Below are positions 7,601 through 34,340 of a DNA stretch of 47,656 nt, one piece after another; the stretch's first letter is position 1; each line of letters begins with the position of its first letter. A program made the translations under genes and the position numbers. Under the pieces are notes generated by a model. The model was not told the origin of the DNA, ran no database searches, and saw nothing but the letters and a program-made list of their open reading frames with translations. The stretch is from Gemmataceae bacterium (GTDB taxonomy: Bacteria > Planctomycetota > Planctomycetia > Gemmatales > Gemmataceae), in the NCBI GenBank assembly GCA_019694755.1, contig JAIBBI010000023.1:1-47656 (forward strand), read 5' to 3'.

Positions 7601-9567
7601 CCGACGATGCACGGGGCCGAGGGCCGCCAGCGTTCGCCAGTGGCGAGTGCGGAGGTCGGGTTGAACCGTCGGCGGAAAGGCACTTCGTCGCTGTTCTGCT
7701 GGACCACCTTGCGGTACGAGAACGACCAGACGAGGCTGTGGGAAAGCAGGTCGATGCCCAGTACCGCGCCGGCATTGGTCGGGCAGACGAGGATGCCGTC
7801 GCCGTACGCGAGGTGGGCGACGTGCGTGCGGCGCAGACCGTCGGCCTTGATCTTGGTGTTGGCGGTGCCGAGCGCCTGCACCCACACGAGTTCGGGACAG
7901 CGGTCAACGGGGTTGAGGGCCGACGGCACCAGCCGGCTGGGGTCGAGGCAGATCAGTCGGAGTTCCGTGTTCTTCTCCGTCAGGCAGTACAGCTTTCCGC
8001 CGAGCGGCAGCGGCGGCCCGAGGAAGAACGTGTCGAGCAGTTCGGACGCGGCATTCAACTCCCGTTTGCCGTCCTTCGCCTCGACCGGGGGGCCCGACTG
8101 CCGGCCACCAAGTACCCACTGAAGCGTGCCTGTTTCGATGTTCGTGGCCAGAAGCTGGTTGTGTTCGGCCTCGTGAGTGAACGGTGCGAGGCTCACCGTT
8201 CCGCCACCGCCGAACTGGGCCGACATCATCATCGTCGGGTGCGGCGGGATCGCGAGATCGTTGATGAAGTACACTCGCTGGCCGTCATGGCTGAGCGCTC
8301 CGAGCACTGAGTGCTCGAAGGCGATGCCCATCGGGCCGATATTCGACTGGCGGTAGTACGTGTTGTACCAGTTGTCGAAGGCCATCCGGCCGCCGCTGGC
8401 GTCGTCGCGGACGACGGCGTACAGGCTATGCTTCGCGTCCTGCCGCCAGATCAGATCGCCAGGCTTTTGCGAACCGTCGTCGCTCGATTTCAGGGTGTAG
8501 GCCGCGACGCCGTCGTAAGCACGGACGAACACTTTGCCGTTGGAGGCGATCGGGAAAAATGCCGGGAGCACCGGCTTGTCACGCATCGCGTCGATCGCGA
8601 TCTTGAGGTGTTGCTCGACCCAGTCGACGGCCGCCTTGTCGCTGGGGTGGACCGTCTCATCGCGTTGTGTCAGCTTCGCGGTCCAGCGCGGCTCGAGATA
8701 CGCGCTGCCGCCGATCCCCTGAGCCGAGCGCTGCGGGTTGCCGCGAAAGACGGGCCAGTCGAAGAGTCCGGCCACGCTGTCGGTGCCGACTTCCCGGACG
8801 AACTCGGTGCGGAGCGTGTCGACGGCGGGCTTCGCCTTACCGAATGCAACTTCACCCTTGCGGGCCGCCTCGGCGAACTTCGCAAACAGCGGGTCGGCCT
8901 GGGCCGTCATCCCCGCCCGTCGATAGGCCAGCGCGGCCTTGAACAAGACTTTCGGGGGCAGCTTGTCGGCATCGGACCGCGCGAGCAGCCGCTCGTAGCA
9001 CAGGGCGGCCATCAGATACTGGCCGCGATCGAGGTGATAGGTGCCGAGCAGGTCGGTCGCCTTCAGCCCGGCATCGGTGTGCTGATACCGCTGCGACACC
9101 TCGGCGAGGATCGCGGGGTCGGCTGTCTGCAGGGCTTCCTTCAGCCGATCCTCGGCCGTGGGACCGTACTGAAGCCGGTACGATTCCAGCCCGTCGGTCG
9201 GCAGGTCGCCGATGATGCGATTGGCCTCGGTCCGGACGCTGATCTTGAGCTTGGATTCCTGACCGGCCTCGTTGCGGCGGGTGACCTCGATGAAGGAGTC
9301 TTCCGGGGAATCGAGAAGTGACTGCAGGCATTCGCCGGCGATCCGCCATTCCTTTTTCTTGACGTAGTCCTGCGCCGCCTGGATGAGCCGGCGCGATTCG
9401 GGGTTGCGCGGCAAAGTCACCGCGTCGGTGAATTGCGGTTCTTCGGTCTTGGACTCGACGGCAGGTTTGAGGCGGGGTTGGCCGCGGCTGGCAGGCGGGT
9501 CGGCGCAGGTCGCCACGAATCCGGCGAGCAGCGTCGCGGCCAGGATTCGGACGGTCGGTCGACGCAT
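4651..9567 (-). CDS. large secreted PQQ-like beta-propeller and TPR protein
   Basis: The product is 1638 residues from the ATG at 9567, chosen because GGAGGA lies 7-8 bases upstream and a signal or lipoprotein-like N-terminus follows (VRILAATLLAGFVATCADPP). An upstream ATG at 9618 would place 17 hydrophilic residues before that signal. After a TPR-like helical region (about residues 40-270) come PQQ-type blades with W-containing strands (GQSLWSVK, GKEVWRES). A second helical TPR-like part (about 840-1120) leads to a second propeller (GDERWRITG, RKELWSYN, GAELWRRDF, GKLEWACDF). Such proteins are typical of planctomycetes and probably act in the periplasm as scaffolds, not as quinoprotein dehydrogenases; I saw no dehydrogenase catalytic signature. 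It heads the operon with the toroid gene. Confidence 0.88.
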   Translation of the reverse strand: MRRPTVRILAATLLAGFVATCADPPASRGQPRLKPAVESKTEEPQFTDAVTLPRNPESRRLIQAAQDYVKKKEWRIAGECLQSLLDSPEDSFIEVTRRNEAGQESKLKISVRTEANRIIGDLPTDGLESYRLQYGPTAEDRLKEALQTADPAILAEVSQRYQHTDAGLKATDLLGTYHLDRGQYLMAALCYERLLARSDADKLPPKVLFKAALAYRRAGMTAQADPLFAKFAEAARKGEVAFGKAKPAVDTLRTEFVREVGTDSVAGLFDWPVFRGNPQRSAQGIGGSAYLEPRWTAKLTQRDETVHPSDKAAVDWVEQHLKIAIDAMRDKPVLPAFFPIASNGKVFVRAYDGVAAYTLKSSDDGSQKPGDLIWRQDAKHSLYAVVRDDASGGRMAFDNWYNTYYRQSNIGPMGIAFEHSVLGALSHDGQRVYFINDLAIPPHPTMMMSAQFGGGGTVSLAPFTHEAEHNQLLATNIETGTLQWVLGGRQSGPPVEAKDGKRELNAASELLDTFFLGPPLPLGGKLYCLTEKNTELRLICLDPSRLVPSALNPVDRCPELVWVQALGTANTKIKADGLRRTHVAHLAYGDGILVCPTNAGAVLGIDLLSHSLVWSFSYRKVVQQNSDEVPFRRRFNPTSALATGERWRPSAPCIVGGRVVFTAPDGVGSEVHCVSLRTGQSLWSVKRDEANDLYLAGVFGDRVLIVARNHVRALALDTGKEVWRESATGVPSGQGTASDGVYYLPLASSADPRSSDKGPEICALDIKTGAIVGRSKARKEPPGNLVFLEGELVSQSARTVAVFPQLKIKQKEIDLALAKNPDDPGGLTERGELFLYNGAVKEAVADLRRALAGRPPAPVKDKAQDRLHEALTTLLQKDFSNAEQYLPEYAALSRVDIPESSDPAKKQELITRQVRRQATYWELLGRGREKQGRAVEAFTAYEQYGALAGHKELVESLEEPHVRARPDIWSRGRIQALLAAANATDRGRIESEINGRWEKVRSAGKLDDLRKFVSLYGPISTAGQAARIELAERLMKSGEPDELAEAERILASLVFSAAQRRDDPASAIRASDLMIALCLRRGQYENAIGFYRQLADEFPDRVIRDGKTGRQLFDELQYDKRYVPYLDTPAVVWTGVLTGKRVQGAFQNRDMSVTVVPAGDLSPFYDRHRLVLDMRLDGGQSPWSLRVLDRATGDERWRITGLPAANYLYSGQANQPFAFARGHQLILHLNQRVIAYDLMERKELWSYNLLGKDGFLANQMQNYAYDPQGGVFITQQEEEKNIYLGRVAIVEAAYIGLLTRQGFVAIDPTRPGPSILWQKSDVSARARAFGDDKHVFLFDPDAPTGRPKFQALRASDGAPVKCHNFAEFYQKKIATLGGRILVAEPQGKALRLIDALTGAELWRRDFAQKSVVVKCDDPKLAGAIEPGGLFTLLDSRTGAVMLTSPLGPAGIEGLQEAQLLADRDRYYLAVSKSAERGVSWNCAASFGLRSVRVNGPLYALNRRTGKLEWACDFLPHQTLLTEQWADLPVLVFASEFNKSAANGTIERQGVRVTAVNKSTGKLVFDDDRLLRQGQFHALTANPSAGRVELIRNDVKVVLATPEGAALPEPAGPPAPNRAINLRANPVRIPVPIPPAPGG

Positions 9568-22606: not shown

Positions 22607-23419
22607 CTATTGTTTGGGCCCGCTCGCGGCGGGTTCGGTATTCATGATCTGCTCGGAAACAAGCCGGTAGGCGTCCGTCGAGATGCAGACTTCGCCACGA
22701 AACGGGTTGTCCATGGCGGCCACCACGGCCACGAGCGTGGCGAGGAAGAAGGCCGATACGGCACCCAGGAACAAGTGTGCGACAATTCGCAAATTAAGCA
22801 GCCACACGAACATCATGTTGAAGACAGCGCCGATGAAGACCACAAACCAGAGGATGGGCGGGATCGCGGAATTGACCGCGTTCAGTCGCAGTCGTCGCGC
22901 TTCAATCATCGAATTGAACTGTCGAAAAGTCTCGGCATGAAGGATTTCCTGGCCCTTGGTAACCGGCTCGAATTGGGTCAGGCGCTCCTGGAATCTCGTC
23001 ATTCGCTGAGTACCACCCTTGGGAACCATCCCCTTCTGCTGCTGCGGCCAAGCCTCTTCGATCACGAAGCGGGTGTATTCGCGCAGGTGTGCCTGCAATT
23101 CGCCGCGGGCCGGCTCGGGATAAGACGACACGTCGCGGTAAAGTGCCCCCAGGCGGGCTGCCTCGAGTGCGACGATCCCGTCGGCCTGCGTGTAATTCTG
23201 GTACGCTGCCAAGGCGAGGAGGCCGAGCAGAATCCCGTAAAAAGCCGCGTGCGCGCCGAACAAGTAGCCGACAGCGTCATTGACTTCCGGCCGTCGACCG
23301 ACAAATATCCGAATGAACGGCCTGACAAAGAGTGTTCCCGTCCACGAAAAGGCAATAAACACGGAGGCGATCAGCACCACCAGTTGCCACGTGGGAAGGT
23401 CATAGATCCAGTAGAACAT
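22607..23419 (-). CDS. DUF4239 (bestrophin-like) membrane protein
   Basis: A protein of about 270 residues with four membrane spans: two near the N-terminus (LPTWQLVVLIASVFIAFSW and GYLFGAHAAFYGILLGLLAL) and two near the C-terminus (ILWFVVFIGAVFNMMFVWLL and FLGAVSAFFLATLVAVVAAM). The C-terminal motif AMDNPFRGE is diagnostic of the DUF4239 family. Between the spans is a helical soluble region with conserved Arg and Glu. The start could be the ATG at 23419 or a TTG at 23440 overlapping the previous stop as TTGA. It belongs to the four-gene leftward cluster. The molecular function of DUF4239 is unknown. Confidence 0.85.
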   Translation of the reverse strand: MFYWIYDLPTWQLVVLIASVFIAFSWTGTLFVRPFIRIFVGRRPEVNDAVGYLFGAHAAFYGILLGLLALAAYQNYTQADGIVALEAARLGALYRDVSSYPEPARGELQAHLREYTRFVIEEAWPQQQKGMVPKGGTQRMTRFQERLTQFEPVTKGQEILHAETFRQFNSMIEARRLRLNAVNSAIPPILWFVVFIGAVFNMMFVWLLNLRIVAHLFLGAVSAFFLATLVAVVAAMDNPFRGEVCISTDAYRLVSEQIMNTEPAASGPKQ

Positions 23420-23436
23420 GCAGCGCTCGCTGAGAT

Positions 23437-24114
23437 TCAACCCGGTTCCGATTCATCGATCGAGGGCTTCGCCCTGCTCCCATCGCGCCCCCGGCACACC
23501 CATACTTCGGGTTCCAGCGACGCGCCGAGCAGTAACGGTAGTGGCTCCCGCCGTTGGGTCGAGAAATCCCGCGGCACGTACTCGTTGGCTAGCGGCGCGG
23601 CCGGCAACAGGCCCATCCGCTGATACGCCTCGGCCACCAGTTCGCTGCAGAAGTAACTCGACGAGTCTTCGGTCAGATTCTCAGTGGCCCGCTTGCCGTC
23701 CCAGACGGCGCGAAGCAACTCCAATCGGTTGCGCGAATACGGCCGACCACGCGCTTCATTATAGAAATTGAGCAACGCCGAGCGCATTTCATCGGTCCGC
23801 TCGACATTCAACCTGCGTATGGCCGTCTCGCCGGCATAGTGCCGCAGCCAATGCTCCAGGTCATAGAGATTGACCCCGGGCGAGACCTCCTGCGTCACGA
23901 CATCCGGGAGGTCGGTATCCAGAGTCGCCTCCCACAGTAGCAGAGGTGACCCCGGCCTCGCCCGCGCCACCAGCGCGGCATGCGACCAGTGACTGTTTGT
24001 CACTAGCCGAATCGCCAGGCTGAACCGGCTCACCCCGGCAAACAGCAGGACATCTCCGCAATCCAACGAGGGCGCAATCTCGTGATACTCAGGCAGCAAT
24101 ACGTCATTGTCCAT
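23437..24114 (-). CDS. YiiX/YaeF-like permuted papain-fold amidase (C92 family)
   Basis: A 225-residue protein from the ATG at 24114, with AGGAG five bases upstream; the preceding GTG at 24120 is an alternative. The permuted NlpC/P60 layout is clear: GDVLLFAG near residue 20, SHWSHAALV with catalytic His45 and a nearby Glu62, and late DSSSYFCSELVAEAYQRMG with catalytic Cys156. Family members hydrolyse amide or lipid-amide bonds and act in the cell envelope; the substrate of this one is unknown. No clear signal peptide is visible. It heads the cluster with DUF4239, AIM24 and LapA, and a heptad repeat array lies in its upstream leader. Confidence 0.85.
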   Translation of the reverse strand: MDNDVLLPEYHEIAPSLDCGDVLLFAGVSRFSLAIRLVTNSHWSHAALVARARPGSPLLLWEATLDTDLPDVVTQEVSPGVNLYDLEHWLRHYAGETAIRRLNVERTDEMRSALLNFYNEARGRPYSRNRLELLRAVWDGKRATENLTEDSSSYFCSELVAEAYQRMGLLPAAPLANEYVPRDFSTQRREPLPLLLGASLEPEVWVCRGRDGSRAKPSIDESEPG

Positions 24115-24137
24115 GGCCACTCCTGAGGCAGGTTCCG

Positions 24138-24245: not shown

Positions 24246-27200
24246 TCACACTGCTTGAAGGAATCGTAGGCGGAATTGAAGGAAGTCGGCCGAATCAACC
24301 GTGCCGTTGCCGTCGCCGTCGAAGACGGGGTTGGTGCCGAGGAAGGCGACGCGGAATTGGAGAAAGTCGGTCGAGGTCACGGTCCCGTCGCCGTCGGCAT
24401 CTCCGAAAAGGCGGAACAGGCCGTTGCCGGGCGTGCCGGTCAGCGTGAAGTCGTCACCGGGGGTGCCGTCGCCGTTGCCGTCGAGGCCGCCGAGGTTTAC
24501 GGCCGGGCTGCTGACGACCAGCGTGTACCGACCGTCGGCGAGGCTGCCGGCTTCGAGCGGGCCGCCGGTGAAGCTCAATGATACCGCATTTCCAAGTAGT
24601 GTCGCGTTCAATGCGACGGCGGCGTTGTCCGACTGTCGGCGGAGGCTGAATGCGGAGCCCGCGAGCGCGGGCGGAGAGTCGAAGGTCACGGTCATCCCGG
24701 TGACGCGCGAACGCTGTACCGACCCATCATTGACTTGAACCCCGAGAACTTTGATCTGCTGGGCCTCGGCCGACCCGATGTCGACGGCCGGGCCGGAGGT
24801 TCGCGGCAGGCCGCGCTGGTCGAGCGTAACGGTGGTCGCTCCGCCGGCGTTGACCAGCGGACTGCCGGGCAGTGGCAGGTGGGTCTGCGTCGTGCCGCCG
24901 TTGCCGGCGAGCGGCCCGAGTAACGCGTTGAGAGGGCTGGCGATGGTGCCGGTCTGATTGCCCGCTCCCGAAAGCACGATGGACGCCGGGCCGATGATAC
25001 CGATGAATGCGTTGCCGCCTGTGGCGTTCGCGGGGCCGTAGATGTCGGGCGACGTGTTATCGGATTGCGAGTTGCCCGAGATGACGGAGTTCTGAATGAC
25101 GACGGGTTGCGTCGAAGCGCGGGTGAGGAACACACCGCCGCCGGCATAGCCGTTGGCCGTGTTGTTGGTGATCGTCGATTGGCGGAGGGTGAATGCCGCG
25201 TCGGCCGAGTCGAAATTGAGGAAAGCGATACCCGCGCCGTAATTTCCGGTCCGGTTGCCGGACACGGTGCTGTTATCAATCGTCAGGGCGGTTCGCCCTT
25301 GCACGAGCAGACCGGCGCCGCGGAAAGCAGTATTGTTGATCAGGGCCGACGAATCGATGCGGACCGTCGATGCCGGGTTGGCGAACGCGCCAAGCGTAAA
25401 GAGGCCTGCGCCGTCGCTCGCGCTGTTGGCGGTCAGGGTCGAGCGGGTGATGGTTACGTCGGCCACGCCGACGAAATAGATCGCTCCGCCGATCGACGCG
25501 CTGTTGCCCGAAAGCACGCTGTCGATGATGTTCAGTTTGGCGGGCGTGGAGGCGAAGCCGTTATTCAGGCTGATCGCGCCGCCGGCGACAGGGGCGGTGT
25601 TGCCTTGGAAGGTGCAGTTGACCAGATTCAGTACGCCGTTCGCGCCGCCGAGGTGCCCCACCGCGCCGCCGTTGGTGTTGGTCGTGTTTCCGATGAAATT
25701 GCAGCGAGTCAGATTGAGCGTGGTATCTGTCGGGGCGTTGATCGCGCCGCCCTGATCGGCGTTGGTGTTGGCGGTCGGTTTGCCGTTCGCGAATGTCACG
25801 TCGAAGATCGAGACGGTGGACCCGCCCGGCGCGGAGACGCGGAATATCTGGCCGAGTTGACCCGCATCGAGCGTGACCCCGGCGGCCGGGCCACGGATTT
25901 CCAGCGACTCGGTCGTGATCGGGCCATTGGTGGCCAGCGTGATCGTTTTGGCAGTAGCAAAGACAGTCGGGTCAAAAGTGATCGTGTCGACGCCCGGGGT
26001 GAAGTTGGCGTTGATGACCGCCTGACGGAACGAGCCGGGGCCGGCATCGTTGGTGTTTGTCACCTTCGTGTCGCCGGGCGTAAACGTGGCGATGGTGAAG
26101 TCGGCATCGGAGACGTCGAAGAAGATGTTGGCGGTCGGCTGGATGCGGATCCGGCAAGTACTTGAACTGACGGCCGGGAGCGAGACAGTCTGGGTACCGT
26201 CGTTGGGTGTGCTGGCGATCAGCGTGTGCGGAAAAGTCTGGCCGCCGTCTGTCGATAGTAGGATCTTGACGCTCGTCGCATTGATGCCATTGGCTGTGGT
26301 TCCGGCTACGTCCCAGGTAATCGTTTGGGGTGTGGTTTGAGACAGAACCGCAGAACTGTTGGGCGAAGTGATCTTGAATGCCGCACCGGTATTGACCACG
26401 CTGAGCTTGATATCATCCGTGGTAAGTCCGCCGCCGCCCGCCCGATTGTCGCGGGCCGAGAACCGGAAATTGAGCGACCGTGTTGTCGTCGGCATGACTT
26501 CCGTGTTACGGACCGTGTTTTTGAGAATGTCAGAATAACTGCGAAGTGTCCGCGTCTTGCTGGTCGACGGTGAGAATGAGCGAAACAAGGGGCTCGATCC
26601 GTTGTCAGCCGAGCCGAGCAGTAGGGCCGCCCCGAGGTCTACTTGATCCCAGGTAAAGGTCACTACATCGCCGTTGGTATCCGTCGAGGTACCCGTCAAC
26701 TCGAAGAACGTGTTGGCCGGTATCGTTCGGTCGACGCCGGCGTTTGCGGACGGCAGGGCGTTTCCTGTCGCGGTCGAACTGCCGACCGAAGGAATGGTGC
26801 CGAGGAACGAGATGATCTGGGCCAGAGTGCCGCCGTGAAAGTAAGTGTCGCTGAGTCCGACAAAGCCGTTGCCCTCGCCGACGTGGCCGTAGGCCATGAT
26901 CGTGCTGCCTGAGCCGGGCTCCCACGCGGAGGCCGACATGCGGTTGGGCGTGAGTGAGGTGCTGACGCCGTTGAAGGTGTGGCCGGCGTTGAACTGGTGG
27001 CCCATTTCGTGGGCGACGACGATGGTCATCCAGGCATTGGTGGTGCTGCCGGAGCCGTCGGTGGTGGACACGCCGCGGGCCTTCGAGCCCGCCGCCCCGA
27101 CCACGCCGAGGTTGGCCACGCCGCCGAGGTTGCCGCCGCCGAACACGTGACCGATGTCGTAATTGGCTGATCCGATCACCGAATCGAGGTTGGTCTGGTT

Positions 27201-28115
27201 TTCGCCGAGCATCGTGCCCGCGTTGTTGCCGGTGTAGGGGTCCGTTGCGGCATTCGTGTAGATGATGAGGTTGTTGTTGGCGACGAGCGTGAAGCGCACG
27301 GCGAGGTCGCGCTCGTAGATCGCGCTGACGGAATTGACGACGGTGGTGATCGCCGACAGGCCGGCCGCCACGCTGCCGCCCGCCTGCGCTGTGAACTCCC
27401 CGTTAGCGGCCGCGGCCAGGCGGAATGTCCGCCGGTTGACGCCGTTGGTGATGTCGGCAAAGTCGTTCGGTGTCGTGCCCGGGGTGGTCGTCGGCGCACC
27501 GATGGCCGCGGAAAGGCAGTCCGGGCAGGTGCAACCGCCACCGTGCGGCGAGGCATAGTCGGAGTTGAAGTAAGAGAAGTAGTGGCCGTTCGAGATCGCT
27601 TGGGTCGGCTCGATGACGTAGCTGCCCCGCGCGGCAAACACCTGCGCGTGGAAGCCCTGGTAGGTGAAGTCGGCCGCGAGCACGGCCGTCGGGTCGTCGA
27701 GGCCCTGCCCCCGGTACGTGCGGATGACCGGGTAACTTTCGGAAAGCTCTTCGGGGAGAATATCGACGGACCAGATGCCGAACCGCTCGAAGTTGCCGTC
27801 GGGCCGGGGCAGGGCGATCTCGAGCGGCTGCATTCCCTCGGAAAGACCCTTTTCCGAAGGGGCGGCCGCCAATGTCGACTGGCTGAATGCCTCCAGCAGC
27901 GTCAGCGGCAGGTAACGCTGTGCCCCAGTGTCGCTGGACGATGTCGCGATTGCGTTCGCGCCCGGGTGCCAGGCGGTGGCGGCAGTCGCATTGGCCCATG
28001 CAAGCTCCGCCGGTGCAATCGGTTGCCAAACGCTCCATTGAGCGGGGGTAATCCGCCGTTCCAGCTCCAGAAATCCGAGGGAAAACCGACGCCGACGCGG
28101 GAAATCGCGAGCCAT
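24246..28115 (-). CDS. large extracellular reprolysin-like metalloprotease with dockerin C-terminus
   Basis: A 1289-residue protein. It begins with a basic run and LGFLELERRITPA, the planctomycete extracellular N-terminal type (LExLExR..P), and has no ordinary signal peptide. The metalloprotease part lies at about residues 220-450: zinc motif HEMGHQFNAGHTF (His369, Glu370, His373, His379) and a Met-turn STIMAYG near 407. It resembles M12B-like proteases, but the usual Gly at the eighth zinc-motif position is Asn376. Ig-like and beta-helix repeats follow (CRIRIQPTANIFFDV; then many NxT, GGAI and SNS repeats from about 690 to 1060). The C-terminus carries two type I dockerin-like Ca loops (DADGDGTVTSTDFL and DGDGNGTVDSADFL). 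It is probably a surface protease. Confidence 0.9.
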   Translation of the reverse strand: MARDFPRRRRFSLGFLELERRITPAQWSVWQPIAPAELAWANATAATAWHPGANAIATSSSDTGAQRYLPLTLLEAFSQSTLAAAPSEKGLSEGMQPLEIALPRPDGNFERFGIWSVDILPEELSESYPVIRTYRGQGLDDPTAVLAADFTYQGFHAQVFAARGSYVIEPTQAISNGHYFSYFNSDYASPHGGGCTCPDCLSAAIGAPTTTPGTTPNDFADITNGVNRRTFRLAAAANGEFTAQAGGSVAAGLSAITTVVNSVSAIYERDLAVRFTLVANNNLIIYTNAATDPYTGNNAGTMLGENQTNLDSVIGSANYDIGHVFGGGNLGGVANLGVVGAAGSKARGVSTTDGSGSTTNAWMTIVVAHEMGHQFNAGHTFNGVSTSLTPNRMSASAWEPGSGSTIMAYGHVGEGNGFVGLSDTYFHGGTLAQIISFLGTIPSVGSSTATGNALPSANAGVDRTIPANTFFELTGTSTDTNGDVVTFTWDQVDLGAALLLGSADNGSSPLFRSFSPSTSKTRTLRSYSDILKNTVRNTEVMPTTTRSLNFRFSARDNRAGGGGLTTDDIKLSVVNTGAAFKITSPNSSAVLSQTTPQTITWDVAGTTANGINATSVKILLSTDGGQTFPHTLIASTPNDGTQTVSLPAVSSSTCRIRIQPTANIFFDVSDADFTIATFTPGDTKVTNTNDAGPGSFRQAVINANFTPGVDTITFDPTVFATAKTITLATNGPITTESLEIRGPAAGVTLDAGQLGQIFRVSAPGGSTVSIFDVTFANGKPTANTNADQGGAINAPTDTTLNLTRCNFIGNTTNTNGGAVGHLGGANGVLNLVNCTFQGNTAPVAGGAISLNNGFASTPAKLNIIDSVLSGNSASIGGAIYFVGVADVTITRSTLTANSASDGAGLFTLGAFANPASTVRIDSSALINNTAFRGAGLLVQGRTALTIDNSTVSGNRTGNYGAGIAFLNFDSADAAFTLRQSTITNNTANGYAGGGVFLTRASTQPVVIQNSVISGNSQSDNTSPDIYGPANATGGNAFIGIIGPASIVLSGAGNQTGTIASPLNALLGPLAGNGGTTQTHLPLPGSPLVNAGGATTVTLDQRGLPRTSGPAVDIGSAEAQQIKVLGVQVNDGSVQRSRVTGMTVTFDSPPALAGSAFSLRRQSDNAAVALNATLLGNAVSLSFTGGPLEAGSLADGRYTLVVSSPAVNLGGLDGNGDGTPGDDFTLTGTPGNGLFRLFGDADGDGTVTSTDFLQFRVAFLGTNPVFDGDGNGTVDSADFLQFRLRFLQAV

Positions 28116-28312
28116 GAACCAGACCTTTCACCGGGGAACCACACCGCCGCGGCGCGTGCCGCGCAGACACTGCTCATGATAGCTGGATCGGGGCCCCGAA
28201 TCCGTCGTGAAATCCGGAGAAACCCCGAAAAACGGGGGCCCGGAGGCCGCGCCGGGCGCGAACCCGGCAAGTCGCCGGGGTGCTCCAGAGGGTGGAATGG
28301 CATAATGTCCGG

Positions 28313-29413
28313 ATGACCGACGTGGTGATCGGCGGCGGGTTTTTCGGGCTGTTTCTCGCGGAACAGCTCGCCCGGCGCGGCACGACCGTCGTCCTGTGCG
28401 AGCGTGGGCCGGCCCTGATGGCCCGGGCGTCGTTCCACAATCAGGCCCGGGTCCACAACGGCTGCCACTATCCCCGGAGCCTGCTCACCGCGGCCCGGTC
28501 GCGGGTCAACGCGCCGCGGTTCCGGGCGGAGTTCGCCGACGCCATAGACGCTTCCTTCACGGCGGTCTACGCCATCGCCCGCCGGGAGTCGAAGGTCTCG
28601 GCCGAGCAGTTTGCCGGGTGCCTGCGCCGGGTCGGTGTCGCGCTCAAACTCGCACCCCCGGCCGTCGCCCGACTGTTCGCCCCCGCTTACATCGAGGCGG
28701 CGTTCGTCACCGACGAGGCGGCTTTCAATGCCGACATCCTCCGCGAGATCATGGTCGCCCGGGTGGCCGCCGCCGGCGTCGATGTCCGACTCAATACCGA
28801 AGTGACGCAGGTCGCCGCGGAGTCCGGCGGCATCGCCGTCGAGACCACCGGTGGCACGCTCCACGCCCGGCAGGTGTTCTGCTGCGGCTACGCGGCCGTC
28901 AATGGGCCGGGGGTCGCCAGTGGCCTCCCGGCCGTTCCGCTCAAACACGAACTCACCGAACTCGCTCTGGTGGATGTGCCCGAAGACCTGCGCCACGTCG
29001 GCATCACGGTGATGGACGGGCCGTTCTTCTCGTGCATGCCGTTCCCGGCCCGCGGCTGCCACTCGCTGAGCCACGTGCGCTACACACCGCACGGATGCTG
29101 GAGCGACGGCCCGGCCGGCTACCGCCCGGCCGACGACGTGCTGGCCGCCGCCGACCGCGCGACCGCCTACCCGTACATGATTCGCGACGCGGCGCGGTAC
29201 GTGCCTGCACTGGCGGGGGCCAGCTATCGCGAGTCGCTCTGGGAGGTGAAAACGCTGTTGCCCCGCAGCGAAACGGACGACTCCCGGCCCATCCTGTTCG
29301 CACCCAATCACGGGTTGCAGGGCTACCATCTCGTCTTGGGCGGCAAGATCGACAACGTGTATGATGCATGGGACGTGATCGAACAAATGCTGGAAAGGGG
29401 CGGGCCATCGTGA
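28313..29413 (+). CDS. FAD-dependent oxidoreductase (DAO family)
   Basis: A 366-residue protein opening with the Rossmann FAD motif VVIGGGFFGLFLAEQLARRG and the acidic strand end VVLCERG. The middle has AFVTDEAAFNADILREIM and GGTLHARQVFCCGYAAVNG, as in the D-amino-acid oxidase and glycine-oxidase-like fold. The C-terminal part contains HGLQGYHLVLGGKID, which fits the second FAD-contacting segment. The ATG at 28313 is the first of a six-gene cluster, and its stop overlaps the next gene's GTG start as GTGA. The substrate is unknown. Given the sugar enzymes downstream it may oxidise a sugar or an amino sugar, which is inference. Confidence 0.88.
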   Translation: MTDVVIGGGFFGLFLAEQLARRGTTVVLCERGPALMARASFHNQARVHNGCHYPRSLLTAARSRVNAPRFRAEFADAIDASFTAVYAIARRESKVSAEQFAGCLRRVGVALKLAPPAVARLFAPAYIEAAFVTDEAAFNADILREIMVARVAAAGVDVRLNTEVTQVAAESGGIAVETTGGTLHARQVFCCGYAAVNGPGVASGLPAVPLKHELTELALVDVPEDLRHVGITVMDGPFFSCMPFPARGCHSLSHVRYTPHGCWSDGPAGYRPADDVLAAADRATAYPYMIRDAARYVPALAGASYRESLWEVKTLLPRSETDDSRPILFAPNHGLQGYHLVLGGKIDNVYDAWDVIEQMLERGGPS

Positions 29414-30405
29414 GCCGGGCGGAAGTGCTCGTCTCGGCGGTCGCGGTCGTCCGCGATCAGGCGGCCCTGCTCCCCGAGTTTCTCGGCGAGTTGTCGAAGC
29501 TGCTCGCGGCCCAATTCACCCATTCCGAAATCGTCCTCATCGACAACGGCTCGACCGACGCCACCGAGTCGGCCGTGCGCGAGACCCTCCGCCGGATACC
29601 CGGCATCCGCTACCTGCGCCTCACCCGCCCCACCGATGAAGAGACCGCGCTGGTCGCGGGCCTCGACGCGGCGATCGGCGACTACGTCGTGTGCCTGAAT
29701 CCGGACTTCGACCCGCCGTCGGTCATCCCCGGGATGATCGACGTGTGCCGGTCGGGTGCGGACCTCGTCGTTGGCGTCGACCGCGGCTCGACTCCGCCGG
29801 GCGGGGCGTACCGGTTTCTCCGCCAGCGGTTTCTCGGTCTCGTGCGCCGATTCCTCGACGTGGACCTGCCGACGGGCACGACCGGTTGCCGGGCGTTGAG
29901 CCGGCACGCAGTCAACGCGCTCGTGCAAGTCCGGCAGCGCCGGCGGTACTTCCTGCTCGTGGCTGCCGATGTCGGCCTCGTCGCGAAGCAGTATCCGTAC
30001 GAGCGGATCTCGCGATCCGGCGCAAAGCCGCACACCAGCCTGCTCCGCGGGTTGCGGATCGGCCTGTCGCTGCTCGTCCACAACTCGCTGGTGCCGCTAC
30101 GGCTCATCAGCGTGCTGGGCCTCGCCGGCAGCTTCCTCAGCTTCCTGTACACGCTGTACGTGATCGGCATCTACCTGTTCAAGAAGGACGTGCTACCGGG
30201 CTGGACCACGCTGAGCCTGCAGGTCAACGGCCTGTTCACGCTCGCCTTCCTGATGCTCGCGCTGCTCGGCGAATACATGGGCCGGCTGGTCGAAGAGACA
30301 ACAGTCCGCCCGCTCTACCACACCCGGCCGGAAGTATCGAGCGCGGTGGACCTGTCGGACCCCGAGCGCCGCAACGTCCTCGGAAAGTCGGACGACGGGG
30401 CATGA
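29410..30405 (+). CDS. GT2 glycosyltransferase with two C-terminal membrane spans (GtrB/ArnC type)
   Basis: A 331-residue protein starting at a GTG that overlaps the previous stop. The GT-A domain has SEIVLIDNGSTDAT, a nucleotide-binding start, and the DxD-like NPDFD near residue 97. PTGTTGCRALSRHAV and RRRYFLLVAADVG follow. Two membrane spans (about residues 235-265 and 280-305) end in FLMLALLGEYMGRLVEET, the typical C-terminal pattern of undecaprenyl-phosphate glycosyltransferases such as GtrB and ArnC. These attach a sugar to the lipid carrier on the cytoplasmic face. The family call is firm; sugar and carrier are not known. Confidence 0.9.
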   Translation: MSRAEVLVSAVAVVRDQAALLPEFLGELSKLLAAQFTHSEIVLIDNGSTDATESAVRETLRRIPGIRYLRLTRPTDEETALVAGLDAAIGDYVVCLNPDFDPPSVIPGMIDVCRSGADLVVGVDRGSTPPGGAYRFLRQRFLGLVRRFLDVDLPTGTTGCRALSRHAVNALVQVRQRRRYFLLVAADVGLVAKQYPYERISRSGAKPHTSLLRGLRIGLSLLVHNSLVPLRLISVLGLAGSFLSFLYTLYVIGIYLFKKDVLPGWTTLSLQVNGLFTLAFLMLALLGEYMGRLVEETTVRPLYHTRPEVSSAVDLSDPERRNVLGKSDDGA

Positions 30406-31190
30406 CGCCGGCCCGCGAAGTGCCGGCCTACTCCGCGGACGAGTACCGCCCGCGCTCGGCCGACTACTGTGTCTGCGTCTTCGTCATCAACGAGAACGGC
30501 AAACTCCACAAACAGCTCGACGCCATGCGCGGACCGGCTGCCGGGCTGGATGTCGTGGTAGCCGACGGCGGCAGCAGCGACGGCTCGACCGCCCGCGAAC
30601 AGTTGGAGCCCCGCGGCGTGAACACGCTGCTGACCAAGACCGGCCCCGGCAAACTCGGGGCCCAGATGCGCATGGCGTTCGCTTGGGCGCTCGACCGCGG
30701 CTATCGCGGCGTCGTGTGTATCGACGGCAACGGCAAGGACGGCGTCGAAGCCCTGCCACGCTTCACGGCCGCCCTCGACGAGGGGTACGATCACGTGCAG
30801 GGCTCGCGGTTCATCCCCGGCGGCGTGTCGGAGAACCTGCCCCGCTCGCGCCACTGGGGCCTGAAGCTGCTCCATGTACCGATGATGCGCTTGGCCTCGC
30901 GGTTTCCATACACCGACACGACCAACGGCTTCCGCGCCTACAGCGCGAAGTTTCTCGCCGACTCACGCGTCGCGACGTTCCGCGACGTGTTCGTCGGCTA
31001 CGAGTTGCACTATTACCTTGCGATCCGCGCCGCCCGACTCGGCTTTCGCGTGACGGAGATTCCCGTCGCCCGGCGATACCCGGCGACCGGCCCGGTGCCG
31101 ACCAAGATCAGCCCGGTCCGCGGCAACCTGCGGGTGATCCGCTGCCTGTTCGCGGCGTGCTTCGGCCGATACAACCCCTCTCCCGCATGA
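30402..31190 (+). CDS. GT2 glycosyltransferase, DPM1-like, no membrane span
   Basis: A 262-residue GT-A protein from an ATG overlapping the previous stop as ATGA. Visible motifs: the N-terminal VCVFVINENGKLHKQL, VVVADGGSSDGST (nucleotide site), GKLGAQMRMAFAWAL, and VCIDGNGKDGVE in place of the usual DxDG.D acceptor loop. GSRFIPGG, TDTTNGFRAYS and VGYELHYYLAIRAARLGF follow, as in dolichol-phosphate mannosyltransferase-like enzymes. It lacks the C-terminal membrane spans of the preceding GT2. Having two different GT2 enzymes, one membrane-anchored and one soluble, points to at least two sugar or polyprenyl-transfer steps in the same pathway. Confidence 0.88.
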   Translation: MTPAREVPAYSADEYRPRSADYCVCVFVINENGKLHKQLDAMRGPAAGLDVVVADGGSSDGSTAREQLEPRGVNTLLTKTGPGKLGAQMRMAFAWALDRGYRGVVCIDGNGKDGVEALPRFTAALDEGYDHVQGSRFIPGGVSENLPRSRHWGLKLLHVPMMRLASRFPYTDTTNGFRAYSAKFLADSRVATFRDVFVGYELHYYLAIRAARLGFRVTEIPVARRYPATGPVPTKISPVRGNLRVIRCLFAACFGRYNPSPA

Positions 31191-32737
31191 CCCACCCGCC
31201 CGACCAGTCGCGACCCGATGTGCCCCGGTGGTTCACCGTCCTGATCGTGGTGGCGGGCCTCGCCGCGTCGTTTCACAACGTGCCGTTCTCGGTGATGATC
31301 TCGGCCGACGTCTGGTCGAACTACGAACTGTCGAACACCGTCGGTCGGGACTTCTACCGCCAGAACACCGCGCGGTCGTTCGAGACCGATCACCCCTACA
31401 GCCTTGCGTTCCCGCCGCTCTGGCCCGTGTCGCTGTGGGCCGGGCGGCAGATCGTCGACCTCGGCGTCGTCACCGGCGTCGTGCTTGCGGGGATCGCTAC
31501 GCTGCTACTCGCCTTCGCACTCGCCCGGCTGGCGCGTCGGCTCGGCTTGCCAACGTGGGTGGGCACGGCGACGTTTCTCACACTCCTGTCCGCCACCGTG
31601 TTCAACGACGAGTTGCAGGCGGGCCGATCGATTCCTCTCTCGGTCGCGCTGTTCGTCGCGACGCTGGCGACGCTGGCGCACAACGGCCGGTGGGTGGTGC
31701 CGACCGCGGGGCTGCTCATGGGCCTGGCCTCGCTCAACCGCTTCGACGCGATGCCGGTCGCGGCCGCGGTCGGCCTCGGCGTCATCATCCTCACGTGGCG
31801 GCGCACGCGGAGTGTCGGCTCGACGTTCGGAGCCGCCCTGTTGTACGGTGCGTTTGTCCTCGTCGCGCTGAGCCCGTGGATGGTCTACTGCCAGGCGCGG
31901 TTCGGCAAGCCGCTGGCTAGCGACAACACCCGGCAACTGTGCCGGGCCCAGGGCGGCCACGTGACGGAGTTTTTCGACGTGCCGCCCGCCAACGATCTGC
32001 GCGACAACTTCCCGCACTGGCTCGCGGGACTGGTCCGCGTGAAGGGCCCGAAGATCGTGCTGGCCTCGATCGGCGGGATCAAGAACTCGTCGATGCCGCT
32101 GATCTTCGCCGCGCTGGCCGTGATCGCCTGTGCCCGCGGCAAGCCCGCACTGCCCGCGGGACTGAAGCGGTTCCTCGTGTACGGCCCGCCACTGGCGGTG
32201 ATGACCGTCGCGGGCTGCCTGCTCGTCGGCTACGGCGAAGGGCGGTACTTTAGCCTGGCGTATGCCGTGCTCGCCCTGATCCTCAACGGCCTGCTCTGCG
32301 CATGGGCACCCGGGTGGACGACGGGCCGGGCGTGCATGTACCTCGTCGTGCTGCTGCTACTTCCGGTCTACCGCCTGGCTGACCAGCGCTACACGGAATG
32401 GCGCGAGCGCATCCGGCCGACGCCCGTGAAGATTCTGTACGAGCCGTCTGCCGAGATGCGGGCCGTGTCGGCCGCGGTGGAGAAGGACTCGGCCGGTCGG
32501 CCGCACAGGTTGCTAATCACGCCGGCCGCGCTGGCCACCGCCTACGGCGCGCTCACTGGCGAACCGACGACGCTGCTGCCCAACCTCGATCACGGCACGC
32601 TCAGCAACTTCACCCGGCTCTGGAAGGTCACGCACGTCTACGACGAGGCCGGCCTGCTGAGCACGGTCGACACGAAAAGGCTGAGACTGGTCGCCCTCGA
32701 CGTGCCCTACCTTTACCGCATCGAGTACGAGCCATGA
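31187..32737 (+). CDS. polytopic membrane protein, GT-C (PMT/ArnT) like
   Basis: A 516-residue integral membrane protein with about ten to twelve spans. An N-terminal span (FTVLIVVAGLAASFHNV) is followed by an acidic loop ISADVWSNYE, where GT-C enzymes keep their catalytic Asp. Later loops contain DELQAGRSIPLSVAL and NRFDAMPVAAAVG, similar to the acceptor-side DE motifs of lipid-linked sugar transferases such as ArnT and Pmt. The C-terminal ~170 residues are soluble and probably outside. GT-C enzymes take sugars from polyprenyl phosphate on the outer face, which fits the GT2 partner upstream. The ATG overlaps the preceding stop and the stop overlaps the next start. Specific activity is unproved. 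Confidence 0.8.
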   Translation: MTHPPDQSRPDVPRWFTVLIVVAGLAASFHNVPFSVMISADVWSNYELSNTVGRDFYRQNTARSFETDHPYSLAFPPLWPVSLWAGRQIVDLGVVTGVVLAGIATLLLAFALARLARRLGLPTWVGTATFLTLLSATVFNDELQAGRSIPLSVALFVATLATLAHNGRWVVPTAGLLMGLASLNRFDAMPVAAAVGLGVIILTWRRTRSVGSTFGAALLYGAFVLVALSPWMVYCQARFGKPLASDNTRQLCRAQGGHVTEFFDVPPANDLRDNFPHWLAGLVRVKGPKIVLASIGGIKNSSMPLIFAALAVIACARGKPALPAGLKRFLVYGPPLAVMTVAGCLLVGYGEGRYFSLAYAVLALILNGLLCAWAPGWTTGRACMYLVVLLLLPVYRLADQRYTEWRERIRPTPVKILYEPSAEMRAVSAAVEKDSAGRPHRLLITPAALATAYGALTGEPTTLLPNLDHGTLSNFTRLWKVTHVYDEAGLLSTVDTKRLRLVALDVPYLYRIEYEP

Positions 32738-33507
32738 ACTCGGCCGTCGTCGGACATACCGGCTTGGTCGGCGGCACGCTCGCCCGCGCCTGGCCCGAGG
32801 CGGTCGGGTTCAACTCGTCGAACATCGAGGCGATTGCCGGGCGGGAGTTCGACTTGCTGCTCGTCGCCGGCATGCCCGGCACGAAGTGGCTCGCCAACAA
32901 GGATCCTGCGACAGACCACGCGGCCATCGAGCGGCTGGCACGCAACCTGGAGCAATGCCGGGCGGACCGCGTCGTCCTGTTCAGCACGATCGACGTTTAC
33001 CCTGTGGCACGGAGTGTCGATGAGGACACGCCGATCGACCCCGCCGCCCAGCAACCGTACGGCCGGCATCGGCTCGCGCTCGAGCGGCAACTGGCGGACA
33101 GGTTCCCCGGCCTCGTGGTCTTGCGCCTGCCCGGCCTCTTCGGCCGGGGGCTGAAGAAGAATGCGATCTTCGACCTGCTGAATAACCACGAGACGGACAA
33201 GATCCAGAGCCGGAGCGTGCTCCAGTGGTACGCCCTGACCCGCCTCGCGGATGATGTGAAGACAGCGCTCGGCACGGGCCTGCCGCTGATCAACCTCGCA
33301 ACTGAACCCCTCAGCGTGGCCGAGGTCGCGCGGGAGGGGTTGGGCATGCCGTTCGAGAACGACCCCGGCGCGCCCCCAGCCGACTACGACATGCAGAGCA
33401 AGAATGCGGGGCTATTCGGCGTTGCGGGTCGTTACATGTACTCGCGCGAGCAGGTATTCGCCGACCTGCGCGATTTCGCCCGGGCCTACCGCGCGGGGGA
33501 GCGATGA
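32734..33507 (+). CDS. short NAD-dependent epimerase/dehydratase-like protein, altered YxxxK
   Basis: A 257-residue extended-SDR fold protein, short for the family (usually about 300-340). It starts with a Rossmann motif, VVGHTGLVGGTLARAW, and continues with LLLVAGMPGTKW and VVLFSTIDVYPVA. The active-site Tyr lies in QQPYGRHRLALE, where the Lys of YxxxK is Arg. A C-terminal substrate region contains LRLPGLFGRGLKKNAIFDLL. Similar RmlD-like or WcaG-like proteins make or modify nucleotide sugars. With Lys replaced, it could be a reductase with altered chemistry or a non-catalytic partner. It overlaps both neighbours by 4 bases. Confidence 0.82.
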   Translation: MNSAVVGHTGLVGGTLARAWPEAVGFNSSNIEAIAGREFDLLLVAGMPGTKWLANKDPATDHAAIERLARNLEQCRADRVVLFSTIDVYPVARSVDEDTPIDPAAQQPYGRHRLALERQLADRFPGLVVLRLPGLFGRGLKKNAIFDLLNNHETDKIQSRSVLQWYALTRLADDVKTALGTGLPLINLATEPLSVAEVAREGLGMPFENDPGAPPADYDMQSKNAGLFGVAGRYMYSREQVFADLRDFARAYRAGER

Positions 33508-34340
33508 AACTCGCCGTCTCGACGATCGCCTGGCCCGAGGGGCGCGATGCCGACGCGGCCGACACGCTGGCCCGGCTTGGAGTCCGCGCAATCGAGGTTG
33601 CACCGCGGAAGATCTGGCCCGACCCGTCGAATGTCGATGATGCCGCGATTGATGAGCACCGCCGGTGGTGGGCCGACCGCGGCTTCGCCATCGTAGCCGC
33701 CCAGGCGCTGCTCTTCGGCCGGCCGGACCTCACGCTTTTTCAGGATGCCGGCGTCCGCGCGCGCACGCTCGACTATCTGAAAGGTGTGATCCGCACGTGC
33801 GGCCGACTGGGCGCGAAGTCACTCGTCTTCGGTTCGCCGAAGAACCGCATCATCGCCCCGCGCTCGGCCGACGAAGTGGAAGCGGAGTCGGTCGACTTCT
33901 TCGGCCAACTCGCATCCTGTGCGGTCGAGCACGGCACGACGGTTGTCGTCGAGGCCAACCCGCCGCGCTACGGGGCTGATTACCTGACCAATGCCGAGTC
34001 GGCCGCGGGTCTGGTCCGGCGGGTGAATCATCCCGGCCTGCGCTGGCACCTCGACACCGCGTGCATGGCCATTGCCGGCGACCCGGTGGCGGAGACGATC
34101 CGGACGAATGCCGACATTCTCGGGCACGTCCACCTGAGCGAACCGGACCTCGCGCCGCTGGGCTCGGGCGGCATCGACCACCCGGCTTTCGCGGCGGAAT
34201 TGCGGGCGGTCGGCTATGCGGGTTGGCTGTCAATCGAGATGCGGGCGGTCGATCCGTTCGACGTGGCGACTCTGGTGTCGGCCGTCGCAGTGGCCCGCGC
34301 CGCGTACGCGGCGGTTGGAAACACCGTGGCCGCGCCGTAG
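33504..34340 (+). CDS. TIM-barrel sugar-phosphate isomerase/epimerase-like protein
   Basis: A 278-residue xylose-isomerase-like (AP_endonuc_2) TIM barrel. It opens MKLAVSTIAWPEGRDADAAD and shows the usual second-strand IEVAPRKIW. Acidic and His residues at strand ends are the expected metal ligands: VVVEANPPRYG, LRWHLDTACM (His-x-Asp), GHVHLSEPDL (His-x-His) and the late SIEMRA (Glu). Enzymes of this fold isomerise or epimerise keto-sugars and inositols. It ends the cluster of six overlapping genes. The ATG overlaps the previous stop as ATGA, so it is surely made with the others. Its substrate is probably the sugar used by the cluster. Confidence 0.85.
   Translation: MKLAVSTIAWPEGRDADAADTLARLGVRAIEVAPRKIWPDPSNVDDAAIDEHRRWWADRGFAIVAAQALLFGRPDLTLFQDAGVRARTLDYLKGVIRTCGRLGAKSLVFGSPKNRIIAPRSADEVEAESVDFFGQLASCAVEHGTTVVVEANPPRYGADYLTNAESAAGLVRRVNHPGLRWHLDTACMAIAGDPVAETIRTNADILGHVHLSEPDLAPLGSGGIDHPAFAAELRAVGYAGWLSIEMRAVDPFDVATLVSAVAVARAAYAAVGNTVAAP

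Follow-up and report, generated by a model that had tools for sequence, protein, structure and literature searches.

The subject of this analysis is a cluster of six genes on the forward strand of a 47,656-nucleotide stretch of DNA from a Gemmataceae bacterium (contig JAIBBI010000023.1; hereafter, the window), which is one contig of a 335-contig metagenome-assembled genome (MAG) that is 97% complete. The cluster consists of five conserved genes, which form its core, and one variable gene. The core genes encode an FAD-dependent oxidoreductase (FAD1), two GT2-family glycosyltransferase homologues (GtrB2 and GT3), a short-chain dehydrogenase/reductase (SDR) of the epimerase type (EPI5) and a TIM-barrel sugar epimerase or isomerase (TIM6), and the variable gene encodes a GT-C-like polytopic membrane protein (GT-C). 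Judging from its protein families, the product of the module is probably an unusual sugar borne on a lipid, which a swappable membrane enzyme would attach to extracellular molecules. The genetic unit is well supported, and its chemistry is unproven. The five-gene set is apparently undescribed; no relevant description was found in open-access full texts, and a prior description elsewhere is possible.

We consider it rather likely that the module is a self-contained extracytoplasmic glycosylation cassette, with lipid charging by GT3 and GtrB2, sugar remodelling by FAD1, TIM6 and EPI5, a flippase and an exchangeable GT-C. Specifically, GT3, held at the membrane by a degenerate GtrB2, would load a sugar onto polyprenyl phosphate; FAD1 would turn a hydroxyl of the lipid-loaded sugar, or one of its precursor, into a ketone by oxidation; TIM6 would epimerise the carbon adjoining this ketone; and EPI5 would reduce the ketone with NAD(P)H to yield a rare sugar. 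Turning over the lipid-linked sugar would then fall to a small flippase, in relatives GtrA or SMR/EamA, and its transfer to an extracytoplasmic acceptor to GT-C. At the level of sequence, this reading draws on the conserved five-gene set, the active-site motifs that are intact in GT3, FAD1, TIM6 and EPI5 (where Arg replaces Lys), the loss of the GtrB catalytic motif in GtrB2, the GtrB2-GT3 and GT3-GT-C fusions, predicted flippases and GT-Cs that neighbour the module in relatives, and carriage on plasmids and a prophage. What we infer are the sugar chemistry and its order, the state of the sugar (lipid-linked, nucleotide-linked or free), its identity and its acceptor.

An initial annotation of the window had read the six genes as one lipid-linked sugar pathway, in a combination not known from described systems. 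All six open genes, their coordinates and their five 4-base overlaps were recovered, and its domain calls agree with ours: FAD DAO, a PgfS/ArnC/GtrB-like GT2, a DPM1/AglJ-like GT2, a weak PMT_2 GT-C, an Epimerase-family SDR and AP_endonuc_2. The idea of one pathway with a lipid-linked sugar logic and GT-C as the user is supported in outline, as is the role given to the epimerase and the isomerase in supplying or altering the sugar, and we likewise found no counterpart of the combination in the open-access literature. The unity of the set holds for FAD1, GtrB2, GT3, EPI5 and TIM6, and fails for GT-C, which is exchangeable.

A conserved five-gene core

Relatives of the module were found by scanning GTDB species genomes with GT3 as seed, and FAD1, GtrB2, EPI5 and TIM6 adjoin GT3 in nearly all of them. 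All five genes occur together in 43 of the 48 loci examined, and most of the five loci lacking the full set are on short contigs or have a split module; the homologues are thus not scattered singly, and no assignment of the set to a known pathway was found in the open-access literature. The module was found in Planctomycetota, Acidobacteriota, Proteobacteria (Alpha- and Gamma-), Saccharibacteria, Actinobacteria, Gemmatimonadota, Verrucomicrobia and Bacteroidales records, which include MAGs, and single bins may carry wrong labels. One record labelled Bryobacterales (L007) has a GT3 72% identical to planctomycete GT3, and EPI5 only; a binning error or a recent transfer is possible. A second seed, FAD1, was used in Planctomycetota and Saccharimonadia against seed bias, and the full set was present in 9 of the 10 loci fetched, one of the ten being an already seen contig. 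The module is rare but complete, occurring in 8 of 195 Saccharimonadia genomes and 5 of 294 Planctomycetota genomes.

Gene order varies among the loci (FAD1-GtrB2-GT3-EPI5-TIM6, EPI5-TIM6-GtrB2-FAD1-GT3, FAD1-GtrB2-EPI5-TIM6-GT3 and others). Despite these changes, the EPI5-TIM6 and FAD1-GtrB2 pairs are adjacent in every complete five-gene locus, so FAD1, at first regarded as an odd extra, belongs with the rest. The pairwise divergences of the five proteins correlate with r of 0.78-0.87, part of which reflects shared species history. Among 95 genomes of the window's family, strong EPI5 and strong FAD1 matches fall in the same 12. In one genus (g35), one contig holds FAD1 with EPI5, and another holds a membrane protein with GT3, TIM6 or both; both halves are present in three of its four genomes, and the remaining genome is 56% complete. 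A bare FAD1-EPI5 pair was considered for this genus and rejected, as TIM6 and GT3 turned up on other contigs.

The five junctions of the window cluster are all exact 4-bp overlaps, GTGA at FAD1/GtrB2 and ATGA at the other four. Such junctions are nothing unusual in the genome, because the bestrophin-like and C92 papain-like amidase genes of the window (22607-24120, minus strand) also overlap by 4 bp (about 23437-23440); in relatives, 68 of 147 module junctions permit a 4-bp overlap. By themselves the overlaps are weak evidence for one unit, and co-conservation is the strong evidence.

Candidate sugar-remodelling enzymes

The AlphaFold 2 model of FAD1 (predicted local distance difference test, pLDDT, 92.7) matches 3dme (Z 31.1), glycine oxidase (31.0), GlpD (30.8) and L2HGDH (about 29); overall, its matches in the superfamily of glycine oxidase, GlpD and L2HGDH have Z 28-31 and 10-17% identity. 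In particular, the segment NQARVHNG aligns with NSGVIHTG of GlpO, a flavin-site motif (N-x(4)-H-x-G) that is also aligned to 3dme, and this match argues for oxidation of a C-OH group over oxidation of an amine. The GlpO-type histidine, H48, is kept in 49 of 49 proteins. A DprE1-type FAD oxidase was considered and rejected, as FAD1 has the DAO fold, and Pfam DAO and GR2-type structures cover its whole length.

TIM6 has a profile match to IolO (1.1e-17), and its closest solved structures are IolO TM_0416 and ketose 3-epimerases; it is thus nearest to keto-sugar and ketose epimerases, at a distant similarity. The metal ligands E150, D184, H210 and E245 are kept in 45 of 45 proteins. One Saccharibacteria module (L106:3998-5660) has two consecutive TIM6-type genes, with hidden Markov model scores of 362 and 226, perhaps for a second epimerisation. 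EPI5 has a GalE/MoeE5 fold (pLDDT 95.8, Z 24-25), and, as in extended, GalE-like SDRs, GxxGxxG and the catalytic S/T and Y (Y109) are present in 48 of 48 proteins. The usual Lys of YxxxK is replaced in all 48, which read YxxxR (R113). After beta-2, where NAD enzymes carry an acid, EPI5 has a Ser (S28, in 46 of 48) and a mostly basic or polar residue, suggesting a preference for NADP(H). Taken together, FAD1, TIM6 and EPI5 suggest a series of oxidation, epimerisation and reduction.

The three enzymes could also make an unusual nucleotide or free sugar before GT3 transfers it to the lipid, with the remainder of the scheme as above, and we regard this order of events as quite possible. Relatives of TIM6 act on free keto sugars, the GalE/MoeE5 fold of EPI5 is typical of nucleotide-sugar enzymes, and a FAD1-like protein (37%) is encoded at 7959-9020 of a predicted viral contig (L122, IMGVR_UViG_3300032893_001286) from which the other module genes are absent. 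Its neighbours, named from reading their sequences, are DegT-like aminotransferase, Gfo/Idh-like oxidoreductase and GT2-like genes. However, every five-gene locus has FAD1 next to GtrB2, a membrane protein, and this constant adjacency speaks for remodelling at the membrane; the core is also without a nucleotidyltransferase or kinase.

Glycosyltransferases, membrane partners and mobile carriage

GtrB2 matches PgfS (1.9e-33), Synechocystis GtrB (sll0501; 1.6e-27, spanning 14-304) and ArnC (8.5e-21), and the two C-terminal transmembrane (TM) helices of GtrB are present, with segments at 221 and 267 in a crude TM scan. In Synechocystis GtrB, D94 and D96 form the DxD metal motif, and D157 is catalytic (PMC4728340). 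Among 45 GtrB2 proteins aligned to this enzyme, DxD is intact in none, D157 is kept in none, and R122 is replaced in most; the window copy has N-P-D at the DxD site and Gly at the D157 site. The conserved positions of the family fall in the TM region (GW.T) and in an N-V at the C-terminus. GtrB2 looks catalytically dead because DxD is lost throughout, a loss that weighs more than that of D157, since DPM-type enzymes may also be without D157.

Among archaeal models for dolichyl-phosphate sugar transfer, GT3 matches AglJ (1.6e-12) and dolichyl-phosphate hexose transferase (1.6e-9); it has no TM segment in nearly all members by the same scan, and no match in the PDB by phmmer. Its motifs DGGSxDG, DGNxKD, QGSR, TDTTN and the K of PTKI are invariant or nearly so (n = 46). 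The simplest reading of these sequences is a two-chain enzyme, with GT3 as the catalytic chain and GtrB2 probably as a catalytically dead membrane partner. The initial annotation had GtrB2 as the active lipid-charging enzyme and GT3 as a separate second GT2, in line with the homology of GtrB2 to the GtrB/ArnC/PgfS group and with the one DxD Asp (NPD) that the window copy retains. We consider this scheme unlikely, given the motif losses in GtrB2, the invariant active-site motifs of GT3, mean identities of 28% for GtrB2 and 54% for GT3, and the fusion of GtrB2 to GT3 in one locus, a plasmid described below.

A crude hydropathy scan places a large polytopic protein inside the module, or no more than 2.5 kb away, in 35 of 43 cases. 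Those of other loci include DUF2142 proteins, PMT_2-type proteins and several without a family, and are mostly unrelated; GT-C was accordingly rejected as a member of the fixed core and is an exchangeable partner of the module. The window GT-C, with 7 TM segments by the crude scan, has one clear relative among the loci, at 30% identity, beside the module of an alphaproteobacterium (L028). In many relatives GtrA stands beside the module, and in others SMR/EamA proteins hold that position; GtrA and SMR proteins have been proposed as flippases of polyprenyl-phosphate sugars (PMC11127046).

The module also occurs on mobile elements. The Psychrobacter plasmid pA22P4 (L114; 10,782 bp) has mobilisation and replication genes, and its remainder is module cargo only: EPI5, TIM6, an SMR protein, FAD1, a GtrB2-GT3 fusion (592 aa) and a polytopic protein. 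The public gene table gives only the GT3 half of this fusion; the GtrB2 frame (L114:5410-6402) is open and continuous with GT3, and a stop codon lost through sequencing error is possible. The plasmid name returned nothing relevant in the open-access literature, and the Psychrobacter cassette had no match in E. coli genomes (near mode). Alphaproteobacterial plasmids carry EPI5-TIM6-GtrB2-FAD1-GtrA-GT3-(GT-C). GT3-GT-C fusions (L023 and L112 among the loci), with both domains seen in Pfam, are found on a Saccharibacteria contig (732 aa) and on Cereibacter and Rhodobacter plasmids (about 810-840 aa), and in the Cereibacter fusion PMT_2 is above cut-off (29.1 vs 26.1 bits). On a Rhodobacter sp. 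CZR27 plasmid (L118:111-1721) and a Ruegeria conchae plasmid (L119:8591-10243), the exosortases XrtE (VPEID-CTERM) and XrtD (VPLPA-CTERM) directly adjoin the module, and a tie of the module to exosortase-sorted proteins or exopolysaccharide is possible.

Furthermore, an IMG/VR record (L121:79-15604) is a P2-like provirus in which tail sheath, tape measure and GPD hub genes are followed by GtrB2-FAD1-EPI5-TIM6-SMR-GT3, with a PMT_2 protein (GT-C) on the opposite strand and CI/S24 repressor and Ogr/Delta genes thereafter. The module has here the position and style of lysogenic-conversion cargo. INPHARED phage records gave no match at 1e-20 with query P0001.

These loci also bear on the idea that the five genes modify the membrane lipid itself, in glycolipid synthesis, and that the polytopic neighbours are coincidental glycan genes. 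Eight of 43 loci are without a large polytopic protein nearby in the crude scan, as this idea would have it; GT3-GT-C fusions in two lineages, and the presence of both SMR and GT-C within the minimal cargo of pA22P4 and of the provirus, make it improbable. Chance neighbourhood in a GC-rich, gene-dense planctomycete region, with the overlaps as compact packing, can be dismissed: 4-bp overlaps are common in operons and another gene pair of the window has one, but five genes that stay together in at least eight phyla, in changed orders, with correlated divergences and matching presence patterns, refute it.

Several observations weigh against the glycosylation cassette that we favour. The PMT_2 match of the window GT-C (0.0065) is below the Pfam cut-off, and GT3 has DGN, which is unusual, in place of DxD. 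The window cluster holds no flippase gene (GtrA or SMR/EamA), and no GtrA was found in this MAG, where SMR/EamA was not searched for. The sugar-modifying steps are all extrapolated from the chemistry of protein families to which identity is low, and, because of the viral contig described above, the FAD1 family is not confined to the module and may act on nucleotide sugars.

The features of the window cluster are listed in Table 1. The operon promoter would have to sit in the intergenic region upstream of FAD1, a gap of ~197 bp beyond which a large reprolysin-like metallopeptidase gene (24249-28115, minus strand) diverges from the operon.

Table 1. Genes of the cluster and the region upstream of it, in window positions
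Feature	Coordinates	Strand	Description
FAD1	28313..29413	+	FAD-dependent oxidoreductase, DAO/GR2 superfamily; Pfam DAO 3.5e-26
GtrB2	29410..30405	+	GTG start; GT2 resembling GtrB and PgfS, with two TM segments at the C-terminus; probably catalytically dead, a membrane partner
GT3	30402..31190	+	DPM1/AglJ-like GT2 without TM segment; predicted catalytic polyprenyl-phosphate glycosyltransferase
GT-C	31187..32737	+	GT-C-like polytopic membrane protein; PMT_2 0.0065, below cut-off
EPI5	32734..33507	+	Short extended-type SDR; Pfam Epimerase 3.7e-6; probable NADP(H) sugar reductase/epimerase
TIM6	33504..34340	+	TIM-barrel sugar epimerase/isomerase; AP_endonuc_2 2.6e-28
Whole cluster	28313..34340	+	Six open genes
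Intergenic region	28116..28312		Between the divergent reprolysin-like gene and FAD1; from gene coordinates

Relation to known glycosylation systems

If our reading is true, the module would be a donor-making branch of its own within three-component glycosylation, marked by a pseudo-glycosyltransferase subunit and by redox epimerisation through three enzymes, neither of which the described branches show. We put forward more tentatively the wider picture of a widespread cassette carried by plasmids and phages. Here a dead GtrB homologue and a GT2 would form one two-chain polyprenyl-phosphate glycosyltransferase, FAD1, TIM6 and EPI5 would rebuild the sugar on the lipid, and the product would be the donor for many unrelated GT-Cs in at least eight phyla, including reduced-genome Saccharibacteria. 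Since a 10.8-kb plasmid and a P2-like provirus each carry it entire, the module lends itself to study as a single unit, and as a marker it would flag genomes of planctomycetes, roseobacters and Saccharibacteria that encode surface sugars as yet unknown.

In its overall logic the module follows three-component glycosylation systems, and it belongs to none of GtrA/GtrB/Gtr, Arn and DprE1/DprE2. Like the phage-encoded GtrA/GtrB/Gtr systems of Shigella and Salmonella O-antigen glucosylation, it would combine GT2 lipid charging with a swappable GT-C; it also occurs as cargo of a P2-like provirus and, in many relatives of the window module, has a predicted flippase of the GtrA type. In contrast to them, its GtrB homologue lacks catalytic motifs, and charging seems to fall to the other GT2, GT3; its core has three candidate sugar-remodelling enzymes, and SMR/EamA may replace GtrA.

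The Arn pathway for 4-amino-4-deoxy-L-arabinose (L-Ara4N) likewise holds sugar-modifying enzymes (ArnA, ArnB and ArnD), a GtrB-type GT2 (ArnC), an SMR-type flippase (ArnE/F) and a GT-C (ArnT) in one cluster. The module differs in having no ArnA, ArnB or ArnD homologues, and in its predicted FAD and TIM-barrel chemistry and its pseudo-GtrB with a separate glycosyltransferase. In the dolichyl-phosphate mannose synthase DPM1-DPM2/DPM3, a catalytic GT2 without TM segments is held by separate membrane subunits; the module would resemble it in pairing a TM-less GT2 with a membrane partner, whereas its anchor would be a degenerate GtrB with a dead GT domain of its own.

Three-component systems include pentofuranose systems with auxiliary epimerases and the mycobacterial DprE1/DprE2 system (PMC11127046). 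The Citrobacter youngae O1/O2 pentofuranose systems and the mycobacterial decaprenylphosphoryl arabinose (DPA) system resemble the proposed workings of the module in a lipid-linked donor, a flippase, a GT-C and auxiliary epimerisation by an SDR or by FAD and SDR enzymes. Their donor is made by a phosphoribosyltransferase from phosphoribosyl pyrophosphate, whereas the module would use a GT2, and, as they are described in PMC11127046, they have no counterpart to its TIM-barrel epimerase. TIM6 itself shares the AP_endonuc_2 domain and the four metal ligands with IolO and the ketose 3-epimerases, but is only distantly similar to them and is tied to glycan genes rather than to catabolism.

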